From a virus: a stretch of 33,675 nucleotides of DNA. A program made the translations under genes and the position numbers. Under the pieces are notes generated by a model. It saw only the letters and a program-made list of their open reading frames with translations. It was not told where the DNA came from and did not search any database. Shown here one piece after another: positions 3,381 through 25,409 of the stretch. The stretch spans positions 1 through 33,675 of the IMG/VR virus record IMGVR_UViG_3300014913_000043; one strand, given 5' to 3'. The number at the start of each line of letters is the position of its first letter. Positions within the stretch are counted from its first letter, which is position 1.

Positions 3381-5264
3381 TCAATTATTTTTCACAATAT
3401 ACAAAAACGTTTCTGGAGACATTAATTTAAGTCCCATCTCTCTTGCTTTAACGGCTTTCGCCGACCTGCTATCTGGGTCTGCAATAACCAATATTGTAGT
3501 TTTGTTGTTGATGGAACTGCAAACCTTAGCACCACACGCTTCTGCGATTTCGCTCATCCTTGATCTTGGGTGGGGAGATTTCCCGGTAAAACAAATTGTT
3601 TCTCCATCAAACTCATTAGTTGTTTCTTGATCACTGTCATCGGAAATTGACATATAACTTGCCAATTTCACAACCTCATCCCTATTGTCAACAAGCCAGT
3701 CACAAAATGCTTGAGATCGCACATCCCCAAAACCATCAAGTTTAGCAACATCTTGTGGGGTAAGATCGAACAAATCGTCAAGTTCAACAATATTCAGGCT
3801 ATTACACAAAATAGAGGCCAAAGATCTACCAACACCTTTTATACATATTGAACCAATAAAATCTGATAAAGAAACGGATCTAGATTGTTCTAGTGAGTCA
3901 ATAATTTTCAAAGCCCTTTTGTCACCCAATATACCATTTTTCATTTTTACTGAAGCCCATTCAGATTTTGTTGTTTCATACAATTCTGTGATAGACCTAA
4001 TATTAGCTCCGACGATAGCACCTTGTCCAAGATTCAGAATATTCCTCTTGTGTATCCAGGTCATAACTCTACCAATAGATTTCCCGGAACATTCTTTATT
4101 TTCACACACCATTTTAGCCCCATCCGGATAAACATCAAAACCACATTCTGGACATTTATCTGGACATACTATTGGTTTTCTATTCTCACCATTTCTAATT
4201 TTTGTTGATACTTTTGGAATAACATCTCCCGCCCTAATAACTTCTACCGTATCACCAATAGCTATCTGTAGTCTGTTGATCTCATCAATATTACACAAAA
4301 GAGCACTACGTATAATTGTTCCCCCTACACCAACTGGAGCTACTTTCCCGACAGGAGTCAACGCACCAGTTTGCCCAACCTGCCATTGGACGTCTAGCAA
4401 AACAGTTTCTCCACCACGTGGCTTGAATTTATATGCTATCTGCCCTTTAGGTCTGTTATTTTTAACACCCATCTCAAAAGACGCTTTTTTGTTGTCTACT
4501 TTAAAAACAATCCCATCAATTTCATACAACAGATTATTTCTACCAGATTCTTCTGAACAACAAAATGAATACATTTCATGTATTCTGTTACCATCAATAT
4601 ATCTGTATTCAACAATAGTATATTTCGGTATCAGAAACCACTGTTCCAAAAAAGTCAACATACTGTTTTCGGTTTCAAACGTATCTAAACATTTATCATC
4701 CACTATAGCATCAAAAGCGTAAAATCGTAAAAACTTAGCATTTTTACTATCACGTCGCCTTAATGTTCCAGATGCTGAATTTCTTGGATTTGCATCACCA
4801 GTAAAATTTTTATCCCAATCATTTTTGTGAATTAGACACTCACATCTAACAGAAACAATATGTTTGTCAATTGTTAATGGAATATTCCCAGATCTAACAA
4901 CATTAGTTGTCACATCTTCTCCAACGTCTCCATCTCCACGAGTTATAGCCTGAACAAAACTTCCATTTTCATATTTTAGTTCTACAGATAAACCATCTAA
5001 TTTATGTTCAAGACAAAAATCTACTCCATGTGGTAGCCACTCGATAAGTTCTTTTTTATTGTTTGCATTATTTAAACTACCCATTTGAATATCGTGCTTG
5101 ACTTTACTTGTTCCTGGTACTGGAGCACCTATCCTTTTTAAAAACGGATTTTTTGGATCTTTGGATCTCAATGCTATAATTGCGGCATCAAACTCCTCAT
5201 CAGTCATTATTGGAGAACCATTGTAGTACGCATCGCTTGCTTCTTCTAATTTTTGTATATCCAT
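3381..5264 (-). CDS. ligA: NAD-dependent DNA ligase
   Basis: A 627-aa, full-architecture LigA that seals DNA nicks using NAD+. Residues 8-32 (AYYNGSPIMTDEEFD region) form a shortened Ia domain. The adenylation domain has motif I EHKLDG with catalytic K88, then RGDGDVGEDVTTN and IAYKFKP. An OB-fold follows. A four-cysteine zinc finger reads CPECGFDVY...CENKEC. After it come helix-hairpin-helix repeats and a C-terminal BRCT domain (TICFTGKSPHPRS to the end). The start is ATG 5262-5264 with a GGGG SD; the in-frame TTG at 5279 is unlikely. It lies alone between two terminators. Only a weak upstream promoter can be proposed (TTGCAA-N17-TAAACT near 5290). Phages more often carry ATP ligases, so a complete LigA is notable. 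Confidence 0.95.
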   Translation of the reverse strand: MDIQKLEEASDAYYNGSPIMTDEEFDAAIIALRSKDPKNPFLKRIGAPVPGTSKVKHDIQMGSLNNANNKKELIEWLPHGVDFCLEHKLDGLSVELKYENGSFVQAITRGDGDVGEDVTTNVVRSGNIPLTIDKHIVSVRCECLIHKNDWDKNFTGDANPRNSASGTLRRRDSKNAKFLRFYAFDAIVDDKCLDTFETENSMLTFLEQWFLIPKYTIVEYRYIDGNRIHEMYSFCCSEESGRNNLLYEIDGIVFKVDNKKASFEMGVKNNRPKGQIAYKFKPRGGETVLLDVQWQVGQTGALTPVGKVAPVGVGGTIIRSALLCNIDEINRLQIAIGDTVEVIRAGDVIPKVSTKIRNGENRKPIVCPDKCPECGFDVYPDGAKMVCENKECSGKSIGRVMTWIHKRNILNLGQGAIVGANIRSITELYETTKSEWASVKMKNGILGDKRALKIIDSLEQSRSVSLSDFIGSICIKGVGRSLASILCNSLNIVELDDLFDLTPQDVAKLDGFGDVRSQAFCDWLVDNRDEVVKLASYMSISDDSDQETTNEFDGETICFTGKSPHPRSRMSEIAEACGAKVCSSINNKTTILVIADPDSRSAKAVKAREMGLKLMSPETFLYIVKNN

Positions 5265-5324
5265 CACTAATATCCCCAACTAGTAAGTTTATTTGTTGTA
5301 CATGGAATTTGCAATATTGTTCCA

Positions 5325-6563: not shown

Positions 6564-7502
6564 TTAAATTGACCCAAAGTCTATTTCTATTTCCCAAACA
6601 ACTCTAGCTCTAAAAATTTGAGAATTTAATGAATTTATTACGTGTGGGTTACTATCTATCACCCTAAGACGTTTCCACGGATAATCTGCAACCATTTTTT
6701 CCCAATTTGTCACTCCAGAAACTAGATCCCCATATCCATCAAATGGGAATATAATATTATTTAAATCTGCCATCCAAAAAGTACTTCTGCTTTGATAATC
6801 TAACCAATCCATTAGCAAATTTCTGTCTGATGGATTGTCTGCAAATACGTGAAAAGTCAAATATCTTGTCTTTATTTGCCCACCACCCAATTGCCATCCA
6901 CGTTGTGTTCCTCTATTTAATTCCAAAAATATACTTGGCAACCATACCTGATGTTCTCTTGTCGGTACGCCAGACGTCGAAAGGTCTGATAAAAACTCAG
7001 TAGCTGCGTTTAACATTAAGGTTCTAAATTCTATGTGATCCGCAAAGCCTACAAAAACAGATCTGCTGGTGAATTCTGCTCTAATATCTTCATCTGTACT
7101 CTTGGCTTCATCAAAAATTATTCTACCATTATTGTAATCAACATGGTGGGAATTAATACCAACTTCTGTAGTTGGATAAAAATCACCATTTATGTACACA
7201 CCAGAAACACGGAATGGATCAACAGACCCGCTAGCTGATAATGCAGCACCGCTTTCCCAGACCCATTCTCTTCCAACACCTTCCCATACACAACCATCTC
7301 CGTATCTTTCGTCCTTTACTGGATGCAATTTTGATTCATCGTCATCATACCAACTAGACGAATCATATTCATATATACCATATGCTCCATTATTTAATAG
7401 ACCCCAATCAACAAACCACTTCAAATTGTACAACAACTGATCTGTTAGTTCGTATCCTCCGAAACCACCATCGTTTGTTCCCTTAAAATCTAAAGCACAC
7501 AT
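6564..7502 (-). CDS. Virion structural protein, neck/tail region, 312 aa
   Basis: I do not recognise a named family. It is a 312-aa acidic, Trp- and Tyr-rich protein without membrane segments. Features are an N-terminal DGGFGGYELTDQLLYNLKWF, a central VYINGDFY.TTEVGINSHHVDYNNGRI segment that reads like beta-strands and turns, and a C-terminal half with FADNPSDRNLLMDWLDYQS followed by RARVVWEIEIDFG. The ATG at 7500-7502 follows an AGGA SD overlapping the preceding stop. Its place between a probable neck gene and the tail tube suggests a neck, tail-terminator or connector role, by position only. Confidence 0.6.
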   Translation of the reverse strand: MCALDFKGTNDGGFGGYELTDQLLYNLKWFVDWGLLNNGAYGIYEYDSSSWYDDDESKLHPVKDERYGDGCVWEGVGREWVWESGAALSASGSVDPFRVSGVYINGDFYPTTEVGINSHHVDYNNGRIIFDEAKSTDEDIRAEFTSRSVFVGFADHIEFRTLMLNAATEFLSDLSTSGVPTREHQVWLPSIFLELNRGTQRGWQLGGGQIKTRYLTFHVFADNPSDRNLLMDWLDYQSRSTFWMADLNNIIFPFDGYGDLVSGVTNWEKMVADYPWKRLRVIDSNPHVINSLNSQIFRARVVWEIEIDFGSI

Positions 7503-7504
7503 AT

Positions 7505-8203
7505 TTATCCTACCTTTTCCATTAATATTTTGGCAGCGTCTACTAAAACATTTGGCTGACCAAGAGCATATTCTATAAAGTTCTGACCAGCATTACCAGC
7601 AACTATCGCAGGCAAAACATATCCTCCACTTCCACCAAGTGCTTCAAGTGAAACCATAATGGCTCTACCACTTCTAGATGTATGCTGAATTCGTACATCA
7701 AAATCGGCATCTTCACCTTTGAAAACTATGTCATATGCGGCTTGACCAACATCTATATTTGGGTCCACCAATAACCATTTTGCAACAGGAATAACGATAT
7801 TAGACTGAGAAGAGACATAACTTGCACCAGGTAAACTCAAATAATCGTTCCAATTTGTTTCAACAGCCTGTATTCTAACGGAAACAGCATCGCTTTCTGA
7901 TCTGCTTCCTATTTTTACGGACGATCTTATTAGTTGAGACATACCATCAACCAAAGAATTTGCCAAACTATCACTTAACCCAAAATGTGCTGGTAAATCC
8001 TCTGAGCCTTGACCACGCAAAGCCATTGCAACTTCTGTGTTCTCAAAATTTTTAACCAACATTTGACCAATTGCATCGCTGATAGCTTTACCTTTTGTTA
8101 TAGCTATTTTTGCCCACAAACGAGATCCAAAAATCTTGGTACCCTTTACTAGTCGCTCAAGAGTTAAGTTCGTAGACTGGAGTGTCCATTTTATACTAGC
8201 CAT
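7505..8203 (-). CDS. Virion structural/neck protein, 232 aa
   Basis: A 232-aa protein starting MASIKWTLQSTN at ATG 8201-8203, with SD TTAGGAG directly upstream; the longer frame to 8242 overlaps the preceding gene and lacks an SD. The first 100 residues are helical with a Lys-rich stretch (LVKGTKIFGSRLWAKIAITKGKA) and a segment AMALRGQGSEDLPAHFGLSD. The C-terminal half (YDIVFKGEDADFDVRIQHTS) looks beta-rich. The general plan (helix, then mixed domain, in a head-to-tail position) resembles phage tail-completion/neck proteins, but no family is firmly recognised. Confidence 0.55.
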   Translation of the reverse strand: MASIKWTLQSTNLTLERLVKGTKIFGSRLWAKIAITKGKAISDAIGQMLVKNFENTEVAMALRGQGSEDLPAHFGLSDSLANSLVDGMSQLIRSSVKIGSRSESDAVSVRIQAVETNWNDYLSLPGASYVSSQSNIVIPVAKWLLVDPNIDVGQAAYDIVFKGEDADFDVRIQHTSRSGRAIMVSLEALGGSGGYVLPAIVAGNAGQNFIEYALGQPNVLVDAAKILMEKVG

Positions 8204-8211
8204 AACAACTC

Positions 8212-8799
8212 CTAAGAAAGTAATTCCCAAAAACTTATACAATACTTATCTTCCCTCAAACCTACCGGAATTGGACCTTTGATGCGTTTTACTCTCAAAG
8301 TCAAAACATCTCTAATATCGTAGTTAACTATTGCTGTTTGTGCTCTCATTAAACTTGACATGTGGTCAAGATATGTCTTTATACGAACAATACCATTATG
8401 TTTTGATACAGATATTCCATACTCTTCTGCGTTTTTCGGATTCCATTTTAACAGAGCGTGTATGCATTCATTTGAACTTTCAGAAAGCAAACCAGCACCC
8501 TTACAGTGAGGACATTTTCTACCCCTAACAAACGGACGTGACCCACCACTCCTGTAAACTCCATTTGACCTTTTGCGAACAGGATCATAATAACAATTTG
8601 TACATGGGATTTGTATCGGTGGAAATTCAAGAAAAACATGTTTTCCAAGTTGATTTATTAATGCATTTATCCTAGACTGATATATGTCTATAAGTGTGTC
8701 TGTTATCTGAATTGATGCGGTTGGATCTAACGTTGGACACGTAGCTGCAACCGGATCTGAAGCACCATTAACAAAAACATTAATTGTTCCACTTTCCAT
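8212..8799 (-). CDS. Zinc-ribbon neck/connector-like protein, stand-alone paralogue of the fibre C-terminus
   Basis: A 195-aa protein with two CxxC pairs, C66/C69 and C96/C99; the second is CPHCKGAG, a DnaJ-like zinc knuckle. It is clearly homologous over its length to residues ~845-1031 of the protein encoded just upstream. Shared features are CP.LDP..S.QI at the start, an INQ.GK segment, C.NCY.D.V..., KCP.CKG.G, WNP....YGISVS and a KGP.P.GLRED.YCISFW end. The start is ATG 8797-8799 with SD GGAGG; it overlaps the upstream stop as TAATG. It probably belongs to the neck or head-tail joint and arose by duplication of the domain. The exact role is unknown. Confidence 0.7.
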   Translation of the reverse strand: MESGTINVFVNGASDPVAATCPTLDPTASIQITDTLIDIYQSRINALINQLGKHVFLEFPPIQIPCTNCYYDPVRKRSNGVYRSGGSRPFVRGRKCPHCKGAGLLSESSNECIHALLKWNPKNAEEYGISVSKHNGIVRIKTYLDHMSSLMRAQTAIVNYDIRDVLTLRVKRIKGPIPVGLREDKYCISFWELLS

Positions 8800-11700
8800 T
8801 ATATGGTCCTCCAAAAACTAATACAATACCTATCTTCACGCAACCCAATCGGATATGGACCCTTAACCAGCTTTGCCCTATACTCAGTAATACCAGATAC
8901 TTGACGGTCTATCAATGCGACATTGGCTCTTTTCAATTTATCTGCATATGTAATCAATGTCTTTAATTTTATTATTTCTCCAGTACTACTAACAGATATT
9001 CCATAATTATCGATATCCTGCGGGTTCCATGTTATCAAACATTTTATACACAATTCGGCGTTTTCACCAACAACACCGTTGCCCTTGCAATACGGACACT
9101 TCTGTCCTTCATTAAATGGCGATGGTCCTCCAAGCTTATATCTTCCAGAAGATTTTTGGCTAACATTGTCAAAATAACAATTGGGGCATTCTGAGACTAT
9201 TTTATCAAATTGTAGTACAACATTTTTTCCAGCTTGATTAATCATTGAATCAATTCTATCTTTATATAAATCAATAAGCCTTGAGGGAATCTGGAAGCTA
9301 GCATTTGGATCTGGGATAGGACACACTGGGGCCGGGGTTGGCTCATATCCATTTATTATTAACGAGAATTCACCAGAACAAGGTACTCCGCTAATGCGGG
9401 TAACAATTCCATCAATGAATAATGGAATATTATCGTCGTAGGTATTTCCCGTAGATCCAGAAATAAACAGATCGCAAGACGCAAAAGTGGGGGATAAACC
9501 ATTTATATACAGATCTACGCTATCGCTTGAGGTATTCAAACCACTGATGAATAACTCTATGTTGTCGTCCAGCAAGCCACGGCCACCGATGAACAATTCC
9601 GAAGACGATGAATTAGTTTCAAATCCACCAATAAAAAGATCTCCAGATTGAATTAAAGTATCATGTCCATCAATAAACAAATCTACATAAGATGATTTTA
9701 GTGAATATCCACCTATAAATAAATTTACATCCGAATTAACATTGTCAAACCCTCCAACATACAACGTCGTATTATTTGATAAATCATGACTACCATGTAT
9801 GAATAAGTCGCACGATTGTGTTAAGCCATAGTGTCCATGTATAAATAGCGGAAAAATCAGTGTATCAGAATCATCACCATTGATAAACAAATTACATGAT
9901 TCTGTAAAACTGTTTTTCCCATCAATAAACAATGTAATAAACGAAGTACTTGCATTATATCCACATATGTACAAATCTGCAGAAGAAATTGTTGTGTAGA
10001 ATCCTCCAATATACAAATCAATGTTGGAATTTTCTTCACTAATCCCAGCGATGTATAATGTCGTATTATCTGATGAATAGTTTTCCCCAGCTATAAATAA
10101 ATCACAAGATTGTGTCGAATCATCACACCCATGTATAAATAATGTAGTAGATTCATCAACATTATTTCTGCCATTAATTACTAAGGTGGTATATGAAGTT
10201 GTTTTGTCATACCCATTGATAAACAAATCAATGTCATCATTTACGACATTCAACCCAGCAAGATACAATGTTACATCGTCAGATAAATCTTCATTCCCAG
10301 TAATGAATAAATTACAATCCCCTATTTTGGTGTCCTGCCCATACATAAACAAATCAATAGAAGATGTTGATTCATCATGTCCACAAACAAACAAATCACA
10401 GCTATCATCATTTGAATGTTTTCCATGAATTAATAAATCAAATGAATTATCACATGTATCGTATCCAGTAACAAATAGATCACAAGAATCATTTATTTCT
10501 TCATTCCCAAACATAAACAACGCAAAATTATTGTTTGCCTCATTTTGTCCGTGGATGAATAAATCATTATTGCCACTGTATGGTATAAATTCTTCGACAG
10601 ATTTTGATTTGACCCAAATCATGGTCCGCCATGGACCACGACAGTCTCCAGATGTGGTCTCAACATTTTCGCTTATAATCGCCCCACCTGATGTCGACGT
10701 AACTGTCCACGTATGTGTATGGGATGTTCTTTCTTTTGGAGAATTGTTTTGCGGGAGAGTATTATTTCTGGCAACACCACCACGAGCCATGATTACTGTT
10801 GTTGAGTGAGTGTGTGTTCCAGATGGCAAATCATGTGTATGTGAAGAGAAATGCGAATGATTATTGCTTGATCCATCCGTATTTCCAATTTCAGAAATAT
10901 CTGTTGTTATTTTTATTTGAGTTTCAGATAAATCAGTTGTGCCAAAATCTCCATTACATATTTCCCATTCATCTAAATTTAAATCACCAGATTGACCAAC
11001 ATATCCAAAAATAAGACCAGACGGAATACTGGTTGACCCAGTTGTTTGAACACCCAATAATTTTGTATATGCTGGTTCGTATACACCAGATGTTATGACT
11101 ATATTTTCTGAACTAGTATCCCCATTACCCGAAGATGTTGCTGTTAGACGTACATTATGGTGAAAACTTGAAAGATATCCAGGACTAACAAATCCAGTAT
11201 ACGTGTCGAACGTAGGAGTCGAATAACTACAAAGATTATAATTGTGGTGATGAACATTTTCCGTATGTTTATGTAATTTACTCACATTATGTGAATGACC
11301 ACTTGCTTCATTTACTTGTCCACCATCACCACCAGATACTGCACCAACAACAAACAAACCGCTTAAATTAGGATATTCGTTTATTCCACTAGCTACCGAA
11401 AAATCATTCGGAATTGTCCCCGTATCAGTAAAAGCAATAACACCACTAGGAATATGTGAAATTGCTGATAATGGCTTAATTATTATCGCGGTTATGTGTT
11501 GTGGGAAACATCCAGTTCCATTGTCTGTCGTACATGATCCACTGGCAGAATATGTTATCGAAGCAGCACTCGACGGACCACTTACGTGTGAGTGTGTCAC
11601 ATGTGGTGCCTGATAAAATGTTATGTTCGGCGATGCGTCCCTTACTCCGACAACAGTAGATGCTGTTGCTGATCCGGCAGAAACATAGTGAACGTGTGAA

Positions 11701-11894
11701 TCAGATGTGTGTGTATGGTTATCTAAATCGTGTGTATGTCCACTACCACCACCATTTATTTGACCACTAGCATGTCCCTGAATTGCCCTTCCATCATATT
11801 GGTTGTCTCTGGCAAACCCTGCGGGAATACCACTAGCTCCTGATTCATTGTGTATCCAAATCAGTCGGAAATTAGGATCAAAGTGCGCTGACAT
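8799..11894 (-). CDS. Large fibre-like adhesin: collar-like domains, 14-residue repeat stalk, zinc-ribbon anchor
   Basis: A 1031-aa protein. Residues 20-146, 150-284 and 290-432 are three tandem modules, each with HxH clusters (H53/H55, H60/H62, H67/H69 in the first; similar at 200-217 and 346-363) and ending in a hydrophobic strand such as ITAIIIKP. This is like the metal-binding loops of phage tail-collar/short-fibre proteins. Residues 445-824 are 27 tandem units of about 14 residues with consensus LFI.G.......D. Residues ~845-1031 are a four-Cys zinc-ribbon domain homologous to the next gene product. There is no membrane segment. It is probably a surface appendage attached by its C-terminus and exposing the N-terminal modules for host binding; this is inferred from architecture. 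Confidence 0.75.
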   Translation of the reverse strand: MSAHFDPNFRLIWIHNESGASGIPAGFARDNQYDGRAIQGHASGQINGGGSGHTHDLDNHTHTSDSHVHYVSAGSATASTVVGVRDASPNITFYQAPHVTHSHVSGPSSAASITYSASGSCTTDNGTGCFPQHITAIIIKPLSAISHIPSGVIAFTDTGTIPNDFSVASGINEYPNLSGLFVVGAVSGGDGGQVNEASGHSHNVSKLHKHTENVHHHNYNLCSYSTPTFDTYTGFVSPGYLSSFHHNVRLTATSSGNGDTSSENIVITSGVYEPAYTKLLGVQTTGSTSIPSGLIFGYVGQSGDLNLDEWEICNGDFGTTDLSETQIKITTDISEIGNTDGSSNNHSHFSSHTHDLPSGTHTHSTTVIMARGGVARNNTLPQNNSPKERTSHTHTWTVTSTSGGAIISENVETTSGDCRGPWRTMIWVKSKSVEEFIPYSGNNDLFIHGQNEANNNFALFMFGNEEINDSCDLFVTGYDTCDNSFDLLIHGKHSNDDSCDLFVCGHDESTSSIDLFMYGQDTKIGDCNLFITGNEDLSDDVTLYLAGLNVVNDDIDLFINGYDKTTSYTTLVINGRNNVDESTTLFIHGCDDSTQSCDLFIAGENYSSDNTTLYIAGISEENSNIDLYIGGFYTTISSADLYICGYNASTSFITLFIDGKNSFTESCNLFINGDDSDTLIFPLFIHGHYGLTQSCDLFIHGSHDLSNNTTLYVGGFDNVNSDVNLFIGGYSLKSSYVDLFIDGHDTLIQSGDLFIGGFETNSSSSELFIGGRGLLDDNIELFISGLNTSSDSVDLYINGLSPTFASCDLFISGSTGNTYDDNIPLFIDGIVTRISGVPCSGEFSLIINGYEPTPAPVCPIPDPNASFQIPSRLIDLYKDRIDSMINQAGKNVVLQFDKIVSECPNCYFDNVSQKSSGRYKLGGPSPFNEGQKCPYCKGNGVVGENAELCIKCLITWNPQDIDNYGISVSSTGEIIKLKTLITYADKLKRANVALIDRQVSGITEYRAKLVKGPYPIGLREDRYCISFWRTI
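9423..10562 (-). repeat. Array of 27 in-frame 42-bp repeats (14-residue units)
   Basis: Within the fibre-like gene, a Leu-aromatic-Ile-x-Gly motif recurs at exact 14-residue spacing: LFIHG, LFMFG, LFVTG, LLIHG, LFVCG, LFMYG, LFITG, LYLAG and so on. Twenty-six units are exactly 14 residues and the last is 16; two further degenerate copies follow (LFIDG, LIING). The DNA copies are diverged, so selection acts on the protein pattern, probably one beta-strand and turn per unit. Confidence 0.9.
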
Positions 11895-11908
11895 ACCGCC
11901 CTATTTCT

Positions 11909-12133
11909 TTATATTTCGACTATTTTTTCCTGAGCTTTCTCGATAAATGGCTGCATACATATATCAAGACCATGCAATGCACTTTTAATAGCTATGGCAT
12001 CTCCATGATGGTGAAATATTAATCCATCACTGTGTATGGCTGCTAGCCCAAAACATTTTACATTTTCTAAAATAATCGCAGGTATTGGGTTACCATCTAT
12101 GTCGTCTTGTTCTAAATCAATTATTAGTTTCAT
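11909..12133 (-). CDS. Hypothetical protein, 74 aa
   Basis: A 74-aa protein of unknown function in the neck operon. It begins MKLIIDLEQDDIDGNPIPAI and looks like a small mixed fold with a helical C-terminus (MQPFIEKAQEKIVEI); HHHGD lies mid-sequence. The ATG at 12131-12133 overlaps the stop of the preceding gene as ATGA, so translation is probably coupled. It lies 14 bases upstream of the fibre-like gene, so a chaperone or accessory role for the fibre is possible by position only. Confidence 0.6.
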   Translation of the reverse strand: MKLIIDLEQDDIDGNPIPAIILENVKCFGLAAIHSDGLIFHHHGDAIAIKSALHGLDICMQPFIEKAQEKIVEI

Positions 12134-12351
12134 ATACCATTAATCTCCGAAACAATCCCTGAAGAATAAGTCTGTAACTGTGCAAGATAATGATTTAACA
12201 TATTAATAGTAGTTGAATCATTATCGAGAAACGACCTCAATTCTAGAGTACTCTTGATACCCTGTGTAGCTACAATTAAACTGTTGACATGAATATCAAC
12301 AGCGTGCATGGCACTCATGATACTTTCTTCATCAATATTTGTGATTGTCAT
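12130..12351 (-). CDS. Hypothetical helical protein, 73 aa
   Basis: A 73-aa protein, predicted almost entirely helical (IMSAMHAVDIHVNSLIVATQ, then a second helix NMLNHYLAQLQTYSSG). No cysteine and no membrane segment. The ATG at 12349-12351 overlaps the TAA of the connector-like gene (TAATG) with SD AGAGGTAG. Function is unknown; it may be a small virion assembly or helical-bundle protein of the neck region. Confidence 0.6.
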   Translation of the reverse strand: MTITNIDEESIMSAMHAVDIHVNSLIVATQGIKSTLELRSFLDNDSTTINMLNHYLAQLQTYSSGIVSEINGI

Positions 12352-12878
12352 TATTTTCTACCTCTTTCGGTAACAAATTGATCATAATACCATGTGATAG
12401 TGTCATATGCATTATTTCCAGGAACCCTGTTCGGGCCTAGAACAGCTTTTCCTACACTGGAAGCTTCTCCTGAAGCCAACAATGACCATCTTAATTTTTC
12501 ATATGCAGCACATGGTCCTAATTCAAGGATATCTTTATATCCTTTAAAACTTACACTTGTATCTATTTGACTATCTCCATCTCTAACCTTGATCCCTTGA
12601 CCAAGGGCATTCTTAAAATCGCTTTGTGTTAATATACATGCAGCTTTCAGTGGAACCAAAGCCATAAAAATTTGATCATCACTTGTTACTGGATCTGGAA
12701 CTATCGTTGAATCACTAAGACTATAAATATAATCATAACTAAATGGAATTTCTGCGTCGACCATTATTCCTGCAGTAATCAAAACACTTTTGATGTAATC
12801 ATCTTCGTGAGTTTGCGGAGAGTTATGGTCACCAATTAATATCCTAACCATCAAAACTAAATCACTATCCCATGCCAT
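12351..12878 (-). CDS. Probable head-tail connector protein (gp6-like)
   Basis: A 175-aa protein. The N-terminus VRILIGDHNSPQTHEDDYIK followed by alternating helices, DDQIFMALVPLKAACILTQS and a C-terminal Tyr/Trp-rich helix (AAYEKLRWSLLAS) resembles the all-helical head-tail connector proteins (HK97 gp6/SPP1 gp15 type), which typically start R..I.D.......D..L and contain a .L..lkA...L. helix. It is encoded downstream of capsid genes, where a connector is expected. The start is ATG 12876-12878 with SD GAGGAAAG. Its 5' end overlaps the adhesin gene by 14 bases. The assignment is by pattern and position, not a unique motif. Confidence 0.5.
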   Translation of the reverse strand: MAWDSDLVLMVRILIGDHNSPQTHEDDYIKSVLITAGIMVDAEIPFSYDYIYSLSDSTIVPDPVTSDDQIFMALVPLKAACILTQSDFKNALGQGIKVRDGDSQIDTSVSFKGYKDILELGPCAAYEKLRWSLLASGEASSVGKAVLGPNRVPGNNAYDTITWYYDQFVTERGRK

Positions 12879-15300
12879 CTTTCCTCACTCTCCTTCTTCT
12901 TATTACATTTTTATTTTTGAATGTGAAAATAAATTCATTACATTGTTCTTCCCCAGTATCTGACGTCATCCTGAAATAACAATGCTGTCTTGACAATTCT
13001 TTTACTTGTGGCAAATATTCAGTAGACCATCCCCACTTACCAGTATTGCCAATACTGTAACATCCACTATTGGATATTGATATAACTGTATTTGCTCCAT
13101 TGGTTATATTCCATAATTCAACATTTACTGACGTAGCAGCATTCGCGAAAGATGATATGATTTGTGGATCATAATCTTGTGCTCTAGTAAGTGTCGCAAT
13201 TTTGTCAGACACAACACTAGAACCAATTCCACCGATGTAAAGATTGGATGTGTTTGTTTTTTGTTTGGTTACTTCCAAATATAAATTTGTACTATTTGTT
13301 TTGAATATCGGACCCTTAACAAATAAATTGGTAGAATCATTTGATGGTTCGACAACTTTTAGATACAAATTTATCGCATCTACTGGGGCGGGAACAAGAG
13401 ATATGCCCAAAGGTTTCGGAAGATTGCTCGCAAGAATCTCCGGATTAGACCCGTCAAGGTCTATTTTGCTTATAGTTCCATTGCCGCTACTAGCAATATA
13501 TACTTTTTGATCCGCAGGTTCAACAGCAAGTCCGTAAACATTTTTGTATCCAATATCTGTTGGAACAACAACACCAGAATTAACTCCAGAAATGTCTATC
13601 CTACATATCTCTGCTTTTTCTCCATCATATTCGTTGGACCAATATATGCTATTATTGGTCGTATCTATTGTTATTGGTTTTGGATAAGACAATATTCCTG
13701 ATGTATTTGTTGAACCACCTCCAGCAATACTAAATACTTCCAGTTGGCCAATAGTAGCAGTAGTGTCCGCACTATATAGTGTAAAACTATTGTCTGTAAT
13801 TTTTGTTAACCACAGGTATGCAGCAACATCCTTCGTGATAATATCTCCCAACACACCTGACGATCCGCTAAGCTTGCATATTTGGACACTAGTAGTTGGT
13901 TCTTCATATGTACACAGAGCCAATATGCTTGAATCTAAAACAACCATAGCATGTTTATCTGAATGTTGAACATGTATTCCGTCAGTAAGTGTTTCTGTTA
14001 TATTTCCACTAGACCCAAGAGAATATGTATATATTTTGTTGTCTTCAGAAAGAATACTACCAAATAAAGCTACCTTATCTGTTTCCAACTTTTGTGATAT
14101 TGGTAGTTGTACTTTCTTGTTGTCTCCTATAACTCCACTTTCCCCAAATGTAATATCTAACCCACTAACACTTCCATATCTATACCTACTATCGGTGCTA
14201 GTTGGAGCAAAAAAAGTTACAAATTCACTTGAATTAAATGGTGCAACAGCCAAATATGTGGTATGGCTAAGTTCTCCATCCGGGCTTAGGCGAGATCCTG
14301 TTATAGCAGTTGTTCCGCTGATGGCAACCACTCTGTCGTATACATAGTTGTTCGATAAACTTTTGCCAGCAACAATATATGTACCAGAAGACGTTGGTGT
14401 TTGCGGAGACAATTCCGTTGGATACATCTCATACATAAATTGAGTATCTAATGCAGTCTTTGAATCAACACTCACAGATAATGTTCCACTAAGACTGCAA
14501 ACTACCAAATCTGTACCACTATCCTGGCCGAAAACAATAAAAAACTGTGTATCATTAATTCTTTGAAGATTTACAGATCCCGCATAAGCCGGGTAAATTG
14601 TTCCACTTTGAATGAGTACTTCATCGCCAGATGTCGCAATATGATCTGAGTATTCTATAATACGACAATATAATTCGGTATTGTGGGAATTTGAGTGGGT
14701 ATAAACCAGTGCATGTGTAGTATCGGTAAGCCTTATTGCTCTTGGTATGAATACATTGTGTTCATAAAAAGTTTGTGCGCTGTACGACGTAACCACGTCC
14801 CCCAACGGCTCAGAATATCCCATATATTCCATATTAGAGCCATCAAGATCAGCCTTCATTATTGACCCAGAAGCATCAGCAACCGTCCAATATATTTTAT
14901 TGCTGTTGGTATCAACAGCAACTCCGACAGCATTCATTCCACTAACTATTGTAGTTTGGTCAGTCCCATCCAAATTGGACATAACAAGAGTATCTGCTAA
15001 ATCATCACACCAATACAACTTGCTATTATTTGAATCTATGGCAAGACCACGTGGGTCACTTAAGCCAGACGCAATAGTGACTTCATCAGTCCCAGACACT
15101 GATGATCTTTTGATTGTATTTGTTCCCCAGTCTGCGTAGTAAACGGTGCTATTGGCAGTATCAACAACAATCCCGTATGGATTATCCAGCCCTGTTGTAA
15201 CAATTTCTGTAGTAGTACCACCATATATCCCAGAATGTGATATTTTATCTGAACCTGGATCTGACCAAAAAAGCGTAGTATTGTCTGGACAATAAGCCAT
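12865..15300 (-). CDS. YWTD beta-propeller adhesin with 14-residue repeat stalk
   Basis: An 811-aa protein from ATG 15298-15300 (AGGA SD; the in-frame GTG at 15321 is not favoured). Residues ~1-160 have four LDL-receptor class B-type blades with motifs LFWSD, VYYADW, LYWCDD and IYWTVAD followed by IMKADLDGS. About 360 residues of a different repetitive beta-rich sequence follow. Two more blades (IYWSNEY with ICRIDISG; VYIASS with ISKIDLDGS) complete a set of six. Four 14-residue units follow (NLYLKV, NLFVKG, NLYLEV, NLYIGG). The last ~100 residues are homologous to the neighbouring 108-aa protein (GC..IGNTG...WST; SRQ..F.RM), plus a basic tail RRRRVRKDG. It is probably a virion adhesin; target unknown. 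Confidence 0.7.
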   Translation of the reverse strand: MAYCPDNTTLFWSDPGSDKISHSGIYGGTTTEIVTTGLDNPYGIVVDTANSTVYYADWGTNTIKRSSVSGTDEVTIASGLSDPRGLAIDSNNSKLYWCDDLADTLVMSNLDGTDQTTIVSGMNAVGVAVDTNSNKIYWTVADASGSIMKADLDGSNMEYMGYSEPLGDVVTSYSAQTFYEHNVFIPRAIRLTDTTHALVYTHSNSHNTELYCRIIEYSDHIATSGDEVLIQSGTIYPAYAGSVNLQRINDTQFFIVFGQDSGTDLVVCSLSGTLSVSVDSKTALDTQFMYEMYPTELSPQTPTSSGTYIVAGKSLSNNYVYDRVVAISGTTAITGSRLSPDGELSHTTYLAVAPFNSSEFVTFFAPTSTDSRYRYGSVSGLDITFGESGVIGDNKKVQLPISQKLETDKVALFGSILSEDNKIYTYSLGSSGNITETLTDGIHVQHSDKHAMVVLDSSILALCTYEEPTTSVQICKLSGSSGVLGDIITKDVAAYLWLTKITDNSFTLYSADTTATIGQLEVFSIAGGGSTNTSGILSYPKPITIDTTNNSIYWSNEYDGEKAEICRIDISGVNSGVVVPTDIGYKNVYGLAVEPADQKVYIASSGNGTISKIDLDGSNPEILASNLPKPLGISLVPAPVDAINLYLKVVEPSNDSTNLFVKGPIFKTNSTNLYLEVTKQKTNTSNLYIGGIGSSVVSDKIATLTRAQDYDPQIISSFANAATSVNVELWNITNGANTVISISNSGCYSIGNTGKWGWSTEYLPQVKELSRQHCYFRMTSDTGEEQCNEFIFTFKNKNVIRRRRVRKDGMG
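13201..13368 (-). repeat. Four 42-bp repeats (14-residue stalk units) in the propeller adhesin
   Basis: Units begin LYLKV, LFVKG, LYLEV and LYIGG at exact 14-residue spacing, each preceded by Asn and with Ser/Thr-Asn at the unit end. The pattern is the same as the 27-unit array of the other large adhesin gene. Confidence 0.8.
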
Positions 15301-15355
15301 ATGTTCCTGCCTTTCTTGCACAACTAACTGTGCTAGGCTATATCATTTTATCCTG

Positions 15356-15682
15356 TTATGCCAAGTATGAACTTTTGTCATTTAGCGACGGCATACCACC
15401 ATCATAATTTTCCATGGCGATTAAAACAAAATCACCTTCATCTGTATTAGACCCATCAGACATTCTCCAATGGAACTGCTGCCTACTAGACGTCAAAACT
15501 TCTATACCACTAGTAGACCAACTAAAATTCCCAGTATTACCAATTTCAGTACATCCACTGGATGACGGAACAACGCTAACACCATTTTCCCACAACTCTA
15601 TATTTACTGTCCCGCCAGTCACCAATGTCCCAACTACAGAAGGTGCAGCATCTGGATAAAAATTGAATTCTACAATCGTCAT
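15356..15682 (-). CDS. Small virion protein, stand-alone paralogue of the propeller adhesin C-terminus
   Basis: A 108-aa protein rich in beta-strand residues. Residues ~26-90 match the end of the propeller adhesin: VNIELWENG against VNVELWNIT, SSGCTEIGNTGNFSWST against NSGCYSIGNTGKWGWST, and SRQQFHWRMSDGS against SRQHCYFRMTSDT. The start is ATG 15680-15682 with SD AAGGGGCG, the first gene after the promoter box at 15745-15753. The domain is probably a virion-attachment or neck/decoration module that exists both alone and fused to an adhesin. Its biochemical role is unknown. Confidence 0.65.
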   Translation of the reverse strand: MTIVEFNFYPDAAPSVVGTLVTGGTVNIELWENGVSVVPSSSGCTEIGNTGNFSWSTSGIEVLTSSRQQFHWRMSDGSNTDEGDFVLIAMENYDGGMPSLNDKSSYLA

Positions 15683-15880: not shown

Positions 15881-16909
15881 CTAGAAGCTTCCCAAGAGAA
15901 CACGACGTCCGTCTAGAGCAGCAAAACCATGTTCTTGCCAACCATAAAAACCTGCCTTCTGTCTCCTGTGAAGTGTGTCGTCTTCAAAGATTGACAGTTC
16001 TCTTTTGACTGGCATAACAAACGAGTCATCCTTGGAAAGATCCAGGCCAATTACAACCTCTACGTCGCTTGTACCCATACTTAGACCAAGTGTGTCAAAA
16101 TATGTCTGAAGTTCATAGCCTTCACCAAGCTCATCTAGTGGATGTAGATTGACACCATAGATGCGAGATAGTGTACCACCACCATCTTCTGCAACCATGA
16201 TTTCTCTCCGAGTTACTTCATCAACATCATCGGCATCCCACTCACGAATATCTTCGATAGCCTCTGGGCTTAGATATAGGTCAGTAAGCTTACCACGGTT
16301 GAGCGAAGCGGAGTTCCCGCCAGCGAGACGAGTCATTGTGGTCTTCATGAGAGAAACTAGTCTCTTTGTGAATTGACCAGCAGTAGCAGCACTATCGTAA
16401 ACAAGTGGAGCCCCACCAGAATAATCGGTACGACCTGCACCAGCAGCCAAAATAACTCTCCATCCATCAGTATTCATCTTTGTGACGAATCCAGCTTCAA
16501 GAACTTCCATTGCACGTGCTACGATATTCCATCGTGCAGAGAAGGAGTATTTTAGCGGCCAATCAATTGCATTACCAACATCGTATGTGTTGACTGTTAC
16601 TGCATCTCCGGAAATTGTGCGCTGTGGTAGAGCACCCTCGCTCGGAATCATATATGCAGCATAATCGCCTTCACTTGCAGTCTGATAAAGATCCAATGGA
16701 TATTCAGCAGTAGCACTTGGATCGAGAACTTCGGGAGTAAAGATTCCACTCAAAATGTCTCCATCCAACAGCGCAGAACGCAGAGGGATTTGCAGGGCTT
16801 TAGCCAGCTCACCCATTGCTTCCATAGCTTCAGCCCTGTTCTGTGAACCAGTACGTCTCAAAAGTTCAATTTGCTCTTGAGTAGGCTTTTGAATTCTATT
16901 GCGCTTCAT
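15881..16909 (-). CDS. Major capsid protein (HK97-like fold)
   Basis: A 342-aa protein with the features of a phage major capsid protein: a helical N-terminal arm (TQEQIELLRRTGSQNRAEAM), a central P-domain-like region with long helices (VARAMEVLEAGFVTKMNTDG) and a C-terminal segment KAGFYGWQEHGFAALDGRRV typical of several HK97-fold capsid proteins. It lies downstream of portal, protease/scaffold and a decoration-like gene in canonical order and is followed by a terminator. The start ATG 16907-16909 has SD AAGGGGGTG. Codons here are visibly more G/C-rich than in neighbouring genes, consistent with high expression. It probably loses no large N-terminal domain, because the scaffold is a separate gene. 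Confidence 0.85.
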   Translation of the reverse strand: MKRNRIQKPTQEQIELLRRTGSQNRAEAMEAMGELAKALQIPLRSALLDGDILSGIFTPEVLDPSATAEYPLDLYQTASEGDYAAYMIPSEGALPQRTISGDAVTVNTYDVGNAIDWPLKYSFSARWNIVARAMEVLEAGFVTKMNTDGWRVILAAGAGRTDYSGGAPLVYDSAATAGQFTKRLVSLMKTTMTRLAGGNSASLNRGKLTDLYLSPEAIEDIREWDADDVDEVTRREIMVAEDGGGTLSRIYGVNLHPLDELGEGYELQTYFDTLGLSMGTSDVEVVIGLDLSKDDSFVMPVKRELSIFEDDTLHRRQKAGFYGWQEHGFAALDGRRVLLGSF

Positions 16910-22133: not shown

Positions 22134-25100
22134 TTATCTAAATTTTTCACCACGTTTTAATGCACCAAATAGATTTCCATCTCTGGCACCATTGCTATTT
22201 CTCATTCTTCCGACACCAGGACCACGGTACAGAGACTTATCTTCTCCTGGTTTAGATCGTTTCTCTACATTCCCAGCAACGTCTTCATAATCAATATCGT
22301 AGTTTGGTGTAACCTCAGTATCATAAATAAATTTGTGGGCCAACATAAGTGCTGTATATCTATCTTTCTTGAGTCTACCTTTTCGTGTCCTGCCCTCTAC
22401 TGCCCCTGGCTTAATTACTGTAGGAGTATCAAATCTTTCTCTTCCTGTCGTGGTTTCACTCATTTGTATGGTACATAATTCATTCTTTAATTCTTCAATA
22501 TTAAATACATTTTCTTCATATGTATCTACTATTATACCTTCTGCTTTTTCTGCCTGAAGTGATGAAAACATTTTTACGCTATCAAATGCAGGAAACAAAA
22601 GAGTTCTGGTTTCAAGACTTTTGTGTAAAACAACATTAGCATTTTGGTTATATTCACTACTTTGTTGAACTAGGTGTAATATGTGTCTTCCGTCTGTTTC
22701 TCCATCTGTATCTTTTGGATTATCAAAATCAATGACCTCATAAATTGGAAAATCACCATTTTTAATATCCAACAATTTTTTATTTCTCAACATTTCTGAA
22801 ACTGCATAACCACCACCCTGGCTATCCATCTCTATCCTAACAGGATTAAAAATTCTGACTATTTCACGTATTTTTGAACAACAATAAGCATAATAATCAT
22901 CGTCATCAATAAACCCTAATTTTTTGCGTCTTAGGAATTCTTTTTTGTTGACAGCCCAACAATGAACTATTCTATAGTGGTTTGCCCAAACCTCTATTAT
23001 CACCACCGCCAAATTATCTTTTTCTGCTGCCGGATCTATCCCCATAACATATTTTCTGCCAGATTGGCCTCTCATCAAAGGAGTAAATGTTACTTGTCCA
23101 TCTGGTGTATCTATTGGTCTATTAGGGCCTACTGTGCATCCTTCTATTAGACTACGTGGATAAAATCCATCAGAATCTTTAACAAAAACAGCCCCATATT
23201 CCATGAGATAAATATTTTTGGGTAGCGTAGCTTTAGCGTGAGCTAGTTGGCGAGCATCCAACAATCCTTCTGGTAAGTGTGTATGCGGAATACGAATAAC
23301 AGAATAGTCTCTATAATCAAATTCATCTGGAACCAAATTTTCTCCACCAAAAATTTGAGCAACACGATCTGGATCTCCCTTACTACTTATAATATCCAAC
23401 CACATTTGATATTTCAATGCAAAATGATTGAACGCATAATATGCCGTACCAGAATACACTATTTGGTTACCATGCATTTTGCCGTCATCAGACAATAGTT
23501 TTTTCTTAATATCTCCTGGAATATCCATGTCAGACAATGTCTTGTTGAACGCTATTTTCTTTGCTTCTTCAACAGGAGTTTTTGCCGTGGCCGCGAAACC
23601 ACGAACAACAACATCGAATATATCTTCAGGAATCGAGTTGTGTTGAACAAATCCATTCCCATAAAAACTATTTGTTTTTGGTAAATAGAAGTCATACAAA
23701 TTGTCTTTGTTATCAAGCAATGAAACACTTTCAATCCTCATACACTCATTGTATTTTTTATTAAAAGAAATAACAGCATCTTTAGCCTCTGATTTGGTAC
23801 AATATCTGCCAAGATATCTTACTTTTCCAGAATACAACACCGCAGCTTTCCACTTATTCCTTGATTTATCAAATGTAACACTACAATCATCTGATGGATA
23901 ATATGTTTCTGTTTTAGATGCAATATGATTCCATTCTTTTATATCAAATAACTCAACAATACTTGCAGCATGTCTACCATTGGCTCTGATTATCCACTGC
24001 TTCTTATCGCTAATCTTACTATCTCTTTGTCGTCTCCCTGCTATTATGTCTAATTTCAACAAAATTGTTTGCACATCCTGTGACAACAAATCAGAAACAG
24101 TATAATAGGCAACACCAAGTTTTGATTTATCCTGATCTTTCCATTCAAAACAAGAACCATCACCAAGAAATAAACCTTTCAAGAATGACACAACAATATC
24201 TTTCGGAGATTGCAAAATAGAATTGGGTATGCACTTATCTTTTGCACAAACATAATCTATTCCCAATTCCTTAAGTTTACTTCTAAATTTTGTATTATGT
24301 ATACAAACCTCATATGACTTTTTGCAGTCCCATCCTCTTTTATCTTTATACGCTGGTCTAATATAAACCTTTGGCTCTAAATAGCCAAACCTTTTTCTCA
24401 TCTCATCAACAATTGCAATATCTGTTGTTTTAATTGATACCATATGCTTATTGGTAACTGTCCCTTCCGAAACCAATAATCCCATAAACCATGCAACATC
24501 TTTTGTAATAAAATCATCATATGATTTTTGTGGGAAAACATATTGATTTTCCATCACAATAAAATCGTCTCTAGTCAGGTCTTTCCCAAGTTTCCACCCA
24601 TTTGTTGTTAAAACCTTGTGTTTCTTTGAACATTTAAAGCTATACCCGTATTTGGTTACAACCTCGTACACATCAGTAAGCGGAGTCTTTATAAATCTCT
24701 CCGCGTGTTCAAATTCTCCATACATATTGATCATATCTGTTTTTGAGCAATCAACTTTTGATATTCTTTGAAGTCCATGGTCTGTTTCGACTAACGTATT
24801 CTTGTCCAAACATGCAAATTCATCAGCTATAACCACATTTGCACGGAATCCACGAATTTTTGTCCCGTCACCAAGTGGTAGTGCGTACACAATAGAATCG
24901 CCTATCTTAAAGTAACACAGATCAACACTTTGTCGTGGCCCTGCTTTTTTTCCACCACCAACGATACTCCTCAATACTGGAGAATTATTCCAAATAGTAT
25001 CTATGTAATTAAATACCAACCTTGCCTGTCGTAGTCCGGCACCAACAATAACTATTTTTGTACCTGGATCTAACAATGCCCTAAGCACTGAGTATGCAGC

Positions 25101-25409
25101 CAACATAAATGACTTACTCCCTCCGCGACACGCTATAAGCATTGGAAACGGAGTGTTCCACATAGTTTGTAATGTTGCTATTTGAATCGGAAACAAATCT
25201 AGACCAAGAATCACTTTTGCTGTCCATCCGATATAATCAATATTCAACATATGATCTACAACAACATGGTCTAGAGGGCGAGTTGATTGTTTCAAATTTG
25301 TGAATATGTGGTCCTTTATCGTTGGAACCTTTTTCCTAAATGGAAATAAAAATCCATATTCACCCTGATCACCATGCATCAGTTCTTGAAGTGTTATCTT
25401 ATCCGCCAA
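22134..25409 (-). CDS. Terminase large subunit (TerL) with in-frame intein
   Basis: A 1091-aa precursor. The ATPase domain has a Walker A-like ACRGGSKS (residues 93-100) and Walker B NVVIADE (191-197). An intein of 392 residues begins at Cys200, just after DEFA, and ends with Asn591 before Ser592. After splicing, TerL would be 699 aa. The C-terminal nuclease has VMGIDPAAEK, RIEMDSQGGG and a later KKDRYTAL acidic cluster, as in RNase H-fold terminase nucleases. TerL cleaves concatemeric DNA and pumps it through the portal. The start is TTG 25407-25409, chosen for an AGGAGGAG SD and the MADKITLQEL N-terminus; it overlaps the ERCC4 gene by 11 bases. Confidence 0.93.
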   Translation of the reverse strand: MADKITLQELMHGDQGEYGFLFPFRKKVPTIKDHIFTNLKQSTRPLDHVVVDHMLNIDYIGWTAKVILGLDLFPIQIATLQTMWNTPFPMLIACRGGSKSFMLAAYSVLRALLDPGTKIVIVGAGLRQARLVFNYIDTIWNNSPVLRSIVGGGKKAGPRQSVDLCYFKIGDSIVYALPLGDGTKIRGFRANVVIADEFACLDKNTLVETDHGLQRISKVDCSKTDMINMYGEFEHAERFIKTPLTDVYEVVTKYGYSFKCSKKHKVLTTNGWKLGKDLTRDDFIVMENQYVFPQKSYDDFITKDVAWFMGLLVSEGTVTNKHMVSIKTTDIAIVDEMRKRFGYLEPKVYIRPAYKDKRGWDCKKSYEVCIHNTKFRSKLKELGIDYVCAKDKCIPNSILQSPKDIVVSFLKGLFLGDGSCFEWKDQDKSKLGVAYYTVSDLLSQDVQTILLKLDIIAGRRQRDSKISDKKQWIIRANGRHAASIVELFDIKEWNHIASKTETYYPSDDCSVTFDKSRNKWKAAVLYSGKVRYLGRYCTKSEAKDAVISFNKKYNECMRIESVSLLDNKDNLYDFYLPKTNSFYGNGFVQHNSIPEDIFDVVVRGFAATAKTPVEEAKKIAFNKTLSDMDIPGDIKKKLLSDDGKMHGNQIVYSGTAYYAFNHFALKYQMWLDIISSKGDPDRVAQIFGGENLVPDEFDYRDYSVIRIPHTHLPEGLLDARQLAHAKATLPKNIYLMEYGAVFVKDSDGFYPRSLIEGCTVGPNRPIDTPDGQVTFTPLMRGQSGRKYVMGIDPAAEKDNLAVVIIEVWANHYRIVHCWAVNKKEFLRRKKLGFIDDDDYYAYCCSKIREIVRIFNPVRIEMDSQGGGYAVSEMLRNKKLLDIKNGDFPIYEVIDFDNPKDTDGETDGRHILHLVQQSSEYNQNANVVLHKSLETRTLLFPAFDSVKMFSSLQAEKAEGIIVDTYEENVFNIEELKNELCTIQMSETTTGRERFDTPTVIKPGAVEGRTRKGRLKKDRYTALMLAHKFIYDTEVTPNYDIDYEDVAGNVEKRSKPGEDKSLYRGPGVGRMRNSNGARDGNLFGALKRGEKFR
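23637..24812 (-). mobile_element. Intein with LAGLIDADG endonuclease and AP2-like DNA-binding domain
   Basis: A 392-residue intein inserted in TerL directly after Walker B. Splice block A starts CLDKNTLVETDHG and block B is FKCSKKHKVLTTNGW. The C-terminal blocks are YDFYLPKTNSFYGNG and FVQHN, followed by Ser in the host protein. Two LAGLIDADG-like helices are visible: WFMGLLVSEGT and SFLKGLFLGDG. Between the endonuclease and the C-terminal blocks lies an AP2-like segment (about 23740-23886) with KSRNKWKAAVLYSGKVRYLG followed by R.CTKSEAKDAVI. Such domains bind DNA in homing endonucleases. The element can self-splice and could home into intein-free terminase genes; activity is inferred. Confidence 0.9.

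Follow-up and report, generated by a model that had tools for sequence, protein, structure and literature searches.

Putative fibre-bearing neck stoppers and a shared tip-and-stalk kit in an uncultured clade of large tailed phages

Neck appendages have been seen on many phages, and the way in which they are attached is often obscure. The whiskers of T4 consist of fibritin, a separate trimeric protein that is bound to gp13 and is not part of the stopper (PMC12270204). The neck passage structure of lactococcal phages (936 group and TP901-1) is a non-essential collar built from long modular proteins, in which the carbohydrate-binding tips vary and the anchor, an N-terminal BppU-like domain placed around the portal-adaptor junction, is constant (PMC6669499, PMC10747895). 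Staphylococcus phage 812 has neck whiskers near the adaptor and stopper, which separate stopper-decoration proteins are thought to hold in place (PMC12886913). Stoppers themselves are hexamers beneath a dodecameric adaptor (PMC12886913). In T4 gp14, a loop at the N terminus is followed by a long helix (residues 38–54) and a barrel, and the N-terminal arm wraps an adaptor loop (PMC12270204); the 812 stopper carries a zinc-binding tetra-cysteine loop, reported to be conserved only in Herelleviridae (PMC12886913). In the locus described here, we consider it likely that neck fibres consist of a tip and a stalk fused to the N terminus of the stopper, and that the same kit is also mounted on an unrelated anchor at a second virion site.

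A fibre cassette between capsid and tail genes

The window (the whole stretch of DNA analyzed) is the entire IMG/VR virus record IMGVR_UViG_3300014913_000043, 33,675 bases long and probably a fragment of a larger genome. Its minus-strand structural genes run from terminase through portal and capsid genes to a fibre cassette, followed by genes in neck and tail positions. All cassette genes are on the minus strand, in an interval bounded by the major capsid gene (15881–16909, minus strand) and the tail genes. A reading of the window made from its sequence alone had placed the fibre proteins in this capsid-to-tail interval, and the cassette lies there in all 20 complete islands as well (non-redundant stretches spanning the whole island). 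The profile of the major capsid protein matches gp27 of giant phage G (6wkk; E = 5e-8), and a distant kinship with that phage is possible. The large terminase ORF (1091 aa; 22134–25409, minus strand) contains an internal stretch that matches endonuclease/HNH families and therefore probably holds an intein or an inserted homing endonuclease. An RNA ligase and an NAD-dependent DNA ligase (851–1849 and 3381–5279, both minus strand) are encoded near the structural genes.

The first of two pairs of related proteins comprises a stand-alone 195-aa protein, whose family we named A3 (8212–8799, minus strand; predicted neck stopper with a tetra-cysteine, zinc-ribbon loop), and a 1031-aa protein that combines a histidine-rich tip, a stalk and a stopper domain by sequence comparison (8799–11894, minus strand). 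The small gene starts at an ATG at 8799, which agrees with the 195-aa length given originally; a 200-aa version of the ORF is a TTG extension. This ATG overlaps the stop codon of the fibre gene (TAATG) and its GGAGG Shine-Dalgarno sequence sits in the last codons of the fibre gene, so production of the plain and fibre-bearing proteins is likely coupled. The tip (residues 1–442; 10569–11894, minus strand) is rich in HxH modules that are evident in the sequence, as first described, and are without a Pfam match; it has a distant match to Pas28 of phiAsp2. Repeat analysis delimited the stalk (residues 443–820; 9435–10568, minus strand) as an uninterrupted row of 27 units, each of exactly 14 residues and each with the same invariant leucine and glycine; it has 126 lag-14 identities, compared to 30.7 ± 5.2 in 2000 shuffles (maximum 48). 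The C-terminal domain (residues 840–1031; 8802–9377, minus strand) matches the adjacent 195-aa protein with 44.8% identity over 192 aa (E = 1e-61).

The second pair has the same design. A stand-alone 108-aa protein, whose family we named A1 (15356–15682, minus strand), is encoded directly after the capsid gene and was recognized by its match to the C terminus of a longer protein and by its family profile. That longer protein (12865–15321, minus strand; 818 aa from a GTG, 811 aa from an ATG) has a propeller tip matching the YWTD/LDL-receptor class B repeat (E = 4e-14), as the sequence-only reading had recognized, four 14-residue stalk units identified by repeat analysis (residues 650–705; 13207–13374, minus strand; 14 lag-14 identities compared to 3.1 ± 1.7 in shuffles, maximum 9) and a C-terminal A1 domain (residues 701–808; 12898–13221, minus strand; fold assigned from relative L005). 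Residues 716–803 match the 108-aa protein with 34% identity (E = 2e-12), and the family profile also finds the domain (E = 2e-16). Both long proteins thus end in the domain of their small neighbor and share one stalk repeat, as had been claimed.

The stalk repeat is glycine-rich and common to A1- and A3-anchored fibres. As the plain 195-aa protein begins with a single N-terminal LFxNG unit, the stalk may have arisen by multiplication of a segment that the A3 anchor already possessed. A structure model of the stalk as a monomeric solenoid was of low confidence. A third stalk-bearing protein (∼600–2365 aa), with neither an A1 nor an A3 anchor, occurs among the tail genes (L100:2204–7783; equivalents in L102, L103, L104 and L105) and follows the tape-measure gene in L099/L100, the one record read there.

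Predicted folds and likely sites of the two anchors

An AlphaFold2 (AF2) model of the 195-aa protein, built from 43 homologues, reached a mean pLDDT of 85.7, with pLDDT of ≥90 for 125 of 200 residues, and has a predicted neck-stopper fold, an assignment absent from the original reading. In structural alignment to the PDB, all nine entries with Z of ≥8 were phage necks, the best being that of lambda (Z = 9.6, 97 aa, 3.9 Å), followed by Chi (Z = 9.5, 102 aa, 3.0 Å), Pam3 (Z = 8.7), T4 (Z = 8.4), phiCD508 (Z = 8.2) and the crystallized stopper of 812 (Z = 8.2). SPP1 gp16 scored Z = 7.4, equal to the best non-phage barrel, a flavin reductase. Foldseek returned weak E values (best 5e-3), and its top five matches were phage necks. 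The model consists of an N-terminal loop, a helix at residues 39–56 and a barrel, and two CxxC knuckles follow the helix, forming a tetra-cysteine loop in the same place as in the 812 stopper. The CxxCxGxG motif is also present in DnaJ-type zinc ribbons. Alignment of A3 with Herelleviridae stoppers (hhalign) gave marginal similarity over the helix and tetra-cysteine region (P = 2.8e-4, probability 41). The loop itself is more widespread than reported, since a tetra-cysteine protein resembling Herelleviridae stoppers is encoded outside that family by Enterobacter phage phiT5282EW (L112:3001–3657).

The gene order of the window is colinear with that of the phage 812 neck (capsid, small protein, adaptor, stopper, gp100, terminator; PMC12886913), with the neighbors of A3 placed by position only. 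A conserved 175-aa protein (12351–12878, minus strand), itself without a family match, occupies the adaptor slot, and conserved proteins of 245 aa (directly after the stopper; 7505–8242, minus strand) and 312 aa (6564–7502, minus strand) occupy the slots of gp100 and the tail terminator, respectively. In profile comparisons, none of these three families matched its 812 counterpart (adaptor, gp100 or terminator). Every one of the 20 complete islands, and every one of the 19 whole records searched, has at least one A3 domain. Taken together, the predicted neck fold, the tetra-cysteine loop and the gene slot matching phage 812 indicate that the A3 family is very probably the neck stopper (head-closure protein).

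For A1, modeling points to an Ig-like beta-sandwich unrelated to the A3 anchor; fold searches returned Ig-like domains in general and small uncharacterized phage proteins. The suggestion that both fibres belong to the neck is upheld for the zinc-ribbon anchor, as a predicted stopper, whereas the 108-aa anchor may sit at the neck or on the capsid. Ig-like domains often decorate capsids, and with its gene directly after the capsid gene the 108-aa anchor could be a capsid decoration or the base of a capsid fibre, which would put half of the kit on the head. The genes for the second half of the A1 fibres come after that of the 175-aa protein and lie among the neck genes, which argues against a head location, and we give that location slightly less than an even chance.

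Plain and fused copies across the clade and exchange of tips

Searches for relatives with the 175-, 195- and 108-aa proteins yielded a set of 41 stretches, in which the window is counted and four are near-duplicates. The clade is uncultured, several of its records are 140–181 kb long, and searches of cultured phages with the capsid, 195-aa and 108-aa proteins gave no match. One match, CP070695.1 (L081, L085–L093), is a metagenome-assembled genome labeled as a Heimdallarchaeota chromosome, in which contigs, including one viral contig of the clade, are joined by runs of 100 N, so this match says nothing about the host. Six records of 166–181 kb gave no match to the sheath family PF04984, which is not proof of a non-contractile tail.

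The modular fibre design is kept across ∼40 related contigs, in the order capsid, A1 and A1 fibres, 175-aa protein, further fibres, A3, 245-aa and 312-aa proteins; in one subgroup, the A3 fibre comes after the plain A3. Stand-alone A1 occurs across the whole clade (in one genome, it was detected by whole-record search alone). The 20 complete islands are divided between those with plain and fused A3 (8), plain only (5) and fused only (7). Three of the seven fused-only islands have a single A3 domain, with which a fibre of 983–1037 aa ends, and whole-record searches (120, 166 and 180 kb) found no second A3 copy. One of the eight islands with both forms lies on contig 3300043256_000236 (L041/L012), where the 572-aa A3 protein is a stand-alone stopper gene with an interruption of ∼310 residues; the insertion has intein-like ends (CPN|CWTSG...VVNGIASQN|C) and falls exactly at one cysteine in the first of the two CxxC knuckles.

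On the A3 tree, the plain/fused label requires ∼9–10 changes, although the bootstrap of this tree had yet to settle fully; the strongly supported branches alone force four changes, and plain and fused copies are sisters in places (support of 100/97 and 96/92). These changes suggest repeated gain and loss of stopper fibres rather than one ancient duplication. The earlier proposal that small proteins were duplicated and then extended is supported insofar as both anchors also stand alone, but is incomplete, given about ten plain/fused changes and 7 of 20 islands being fused only. In the stretch of the fused genes that was scanned, no internal start codon that might yield a short stopper had a Shine-Dalgarno sequence, a weak argument as the start sites of plain stopper genes are often weak themselves.

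Many fibre tips are beta-propellers: Pfam searches of 49 fibres found YWTD in 13, SGL in 10, Vgb in 7, RCC1 in 3 and NHL in 3, these being overlapping sets of propeller families. The tips had been called exchangeable, and for 21 of 31 A1 tips a homologous tip is indeed carried by an A3 anchor of a different genome (E < 1e-20, ≥150 aa). The best of these cross-anchor matches has 48% identity over 389 aa from the first residue of each protein, and another top match has 59% over 268 aa; weaker matches may merely reflect the common propeller fold.

Proposed arrangement of fibre-bearing stoppers

Under the preferred reading, a variable N-terminal tip, a stalk of 14-residue repeats and a C-terminal anchor would make up two classes of virion fibre. 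The zinc-ribbon anchor would be the neck stopper, which as a ring seals the DNA-filled head ahead of tail attachment. A fibre-bearing stopper would enter this ring by its C-terminal domain, with stalk and tip pointing outwards from its N-terminal arm; since this arm wraps the adaptor in T4 gp14, such a fibre could exit the ring and keep the channel free. Subunits with and without a fibre would be interchangeable. In the window, the 195-aa plain and 1031-aa fibre-bearing stoppers, encoded by overlapping and probably translationally coupled genes, could plausibly mix in one ring, and fused-only genomes would assemble rings in which every subunit carries a fibre. The Ig-like A1 anchor would play the same role at another virion site, and the tips probably bind the host surface, as is thought for other neck appendages. 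As the fibres would be covalently part of the stopper ring, host binding could be passed mechanically to the DNA gate, making the gate a receptor-sensing device in which the mix of plain and fibre-bearing subunits sets the number of fibres per neck; we regard this extension as unlikely.

Processing of structural proteins is common in tailed phages, and the fused proteins might be precursors that a protease cuts between stalk and stopper, the stopper entering the neck and the fibre attaching elsewhere or being lost. Such cleavage would account for fused-only genomes without an all-fibre neck, but fusion would be pointless where a separate plain stopper is made (the window and 12 other complete islands), and no conserved cleavage motif is obvious where the linker is aligned (a weak argument); we consider this quite unlikely. 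It is harder still to maintain that only stand-alone copies are true stoppers and that fused copies are re-used as anchors on the capsid, tail or baseplate. The divergence of the fused copy of the window (45% identity to its neighbor) exceeds that between stand-alone copies, and upstream fused copies fall in partly separate clades; however, fused copies retain the invariant core residues and cysteines, and fused-only genomes would be left without a stopper, making re-use improbable. Equally improbable is that the zinc-ribbon anchor is some other barrel-fold protein of the neck or tail junction (e.g., a collar or tail-completion protein). Phage necks and tails do contain many small beta-barrels, and tail-tube and other barrels appear lower in the Foldseek ranking, but the top matches are named stoppers or head-completion proteins in stopper position, and gene order and tetra-cysteine loop fit a stopper.

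If fibres are indeed fused to the stopper, attachment would be the simplest possible, the neck fibre being the N terminus of an essential neck-ring protein, and a genome-gating ring would tolerate very large N-terminal cargo and could be duplicated and specialized. This uncultured clade of large phages would possess a natural display kit, in which a single stalk repeat is used at two or three virion sites and tips move from one anchor to another. The predicted loop-helix-barrel layout of A3 and its slot after the adaptor position are like those of known stoppers (lambda, SPP1 gp16, T4 gp14 and 812; PMC12886913, PMC12270204), and its tetra-cysteine loop is like that of 812. Known stoppers are short, with at most a small external beta-sandwich (812), whereas fused A3 proteins bear 360–1740 N-terminal residues of stalk and tip and, unlike known stoppers, two or three paralogues can coexist. 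We found no fibre fused to a stopper in the open-access literature. T4 whiskers are also neck fibres, the location proposed for A3 fibres; no domain common to fibritin and the clade fibres and no fibritin-type family match was found. Fibritin is marked by a coiled-coil trimer with a foldon, the stalk by a glycine-rich 14-residue repeat. Compared to the lactococcal neck passage structure, the polarity of A3 fibres is reversed, with a C-terminal anchor whose model aligns with stoppers.
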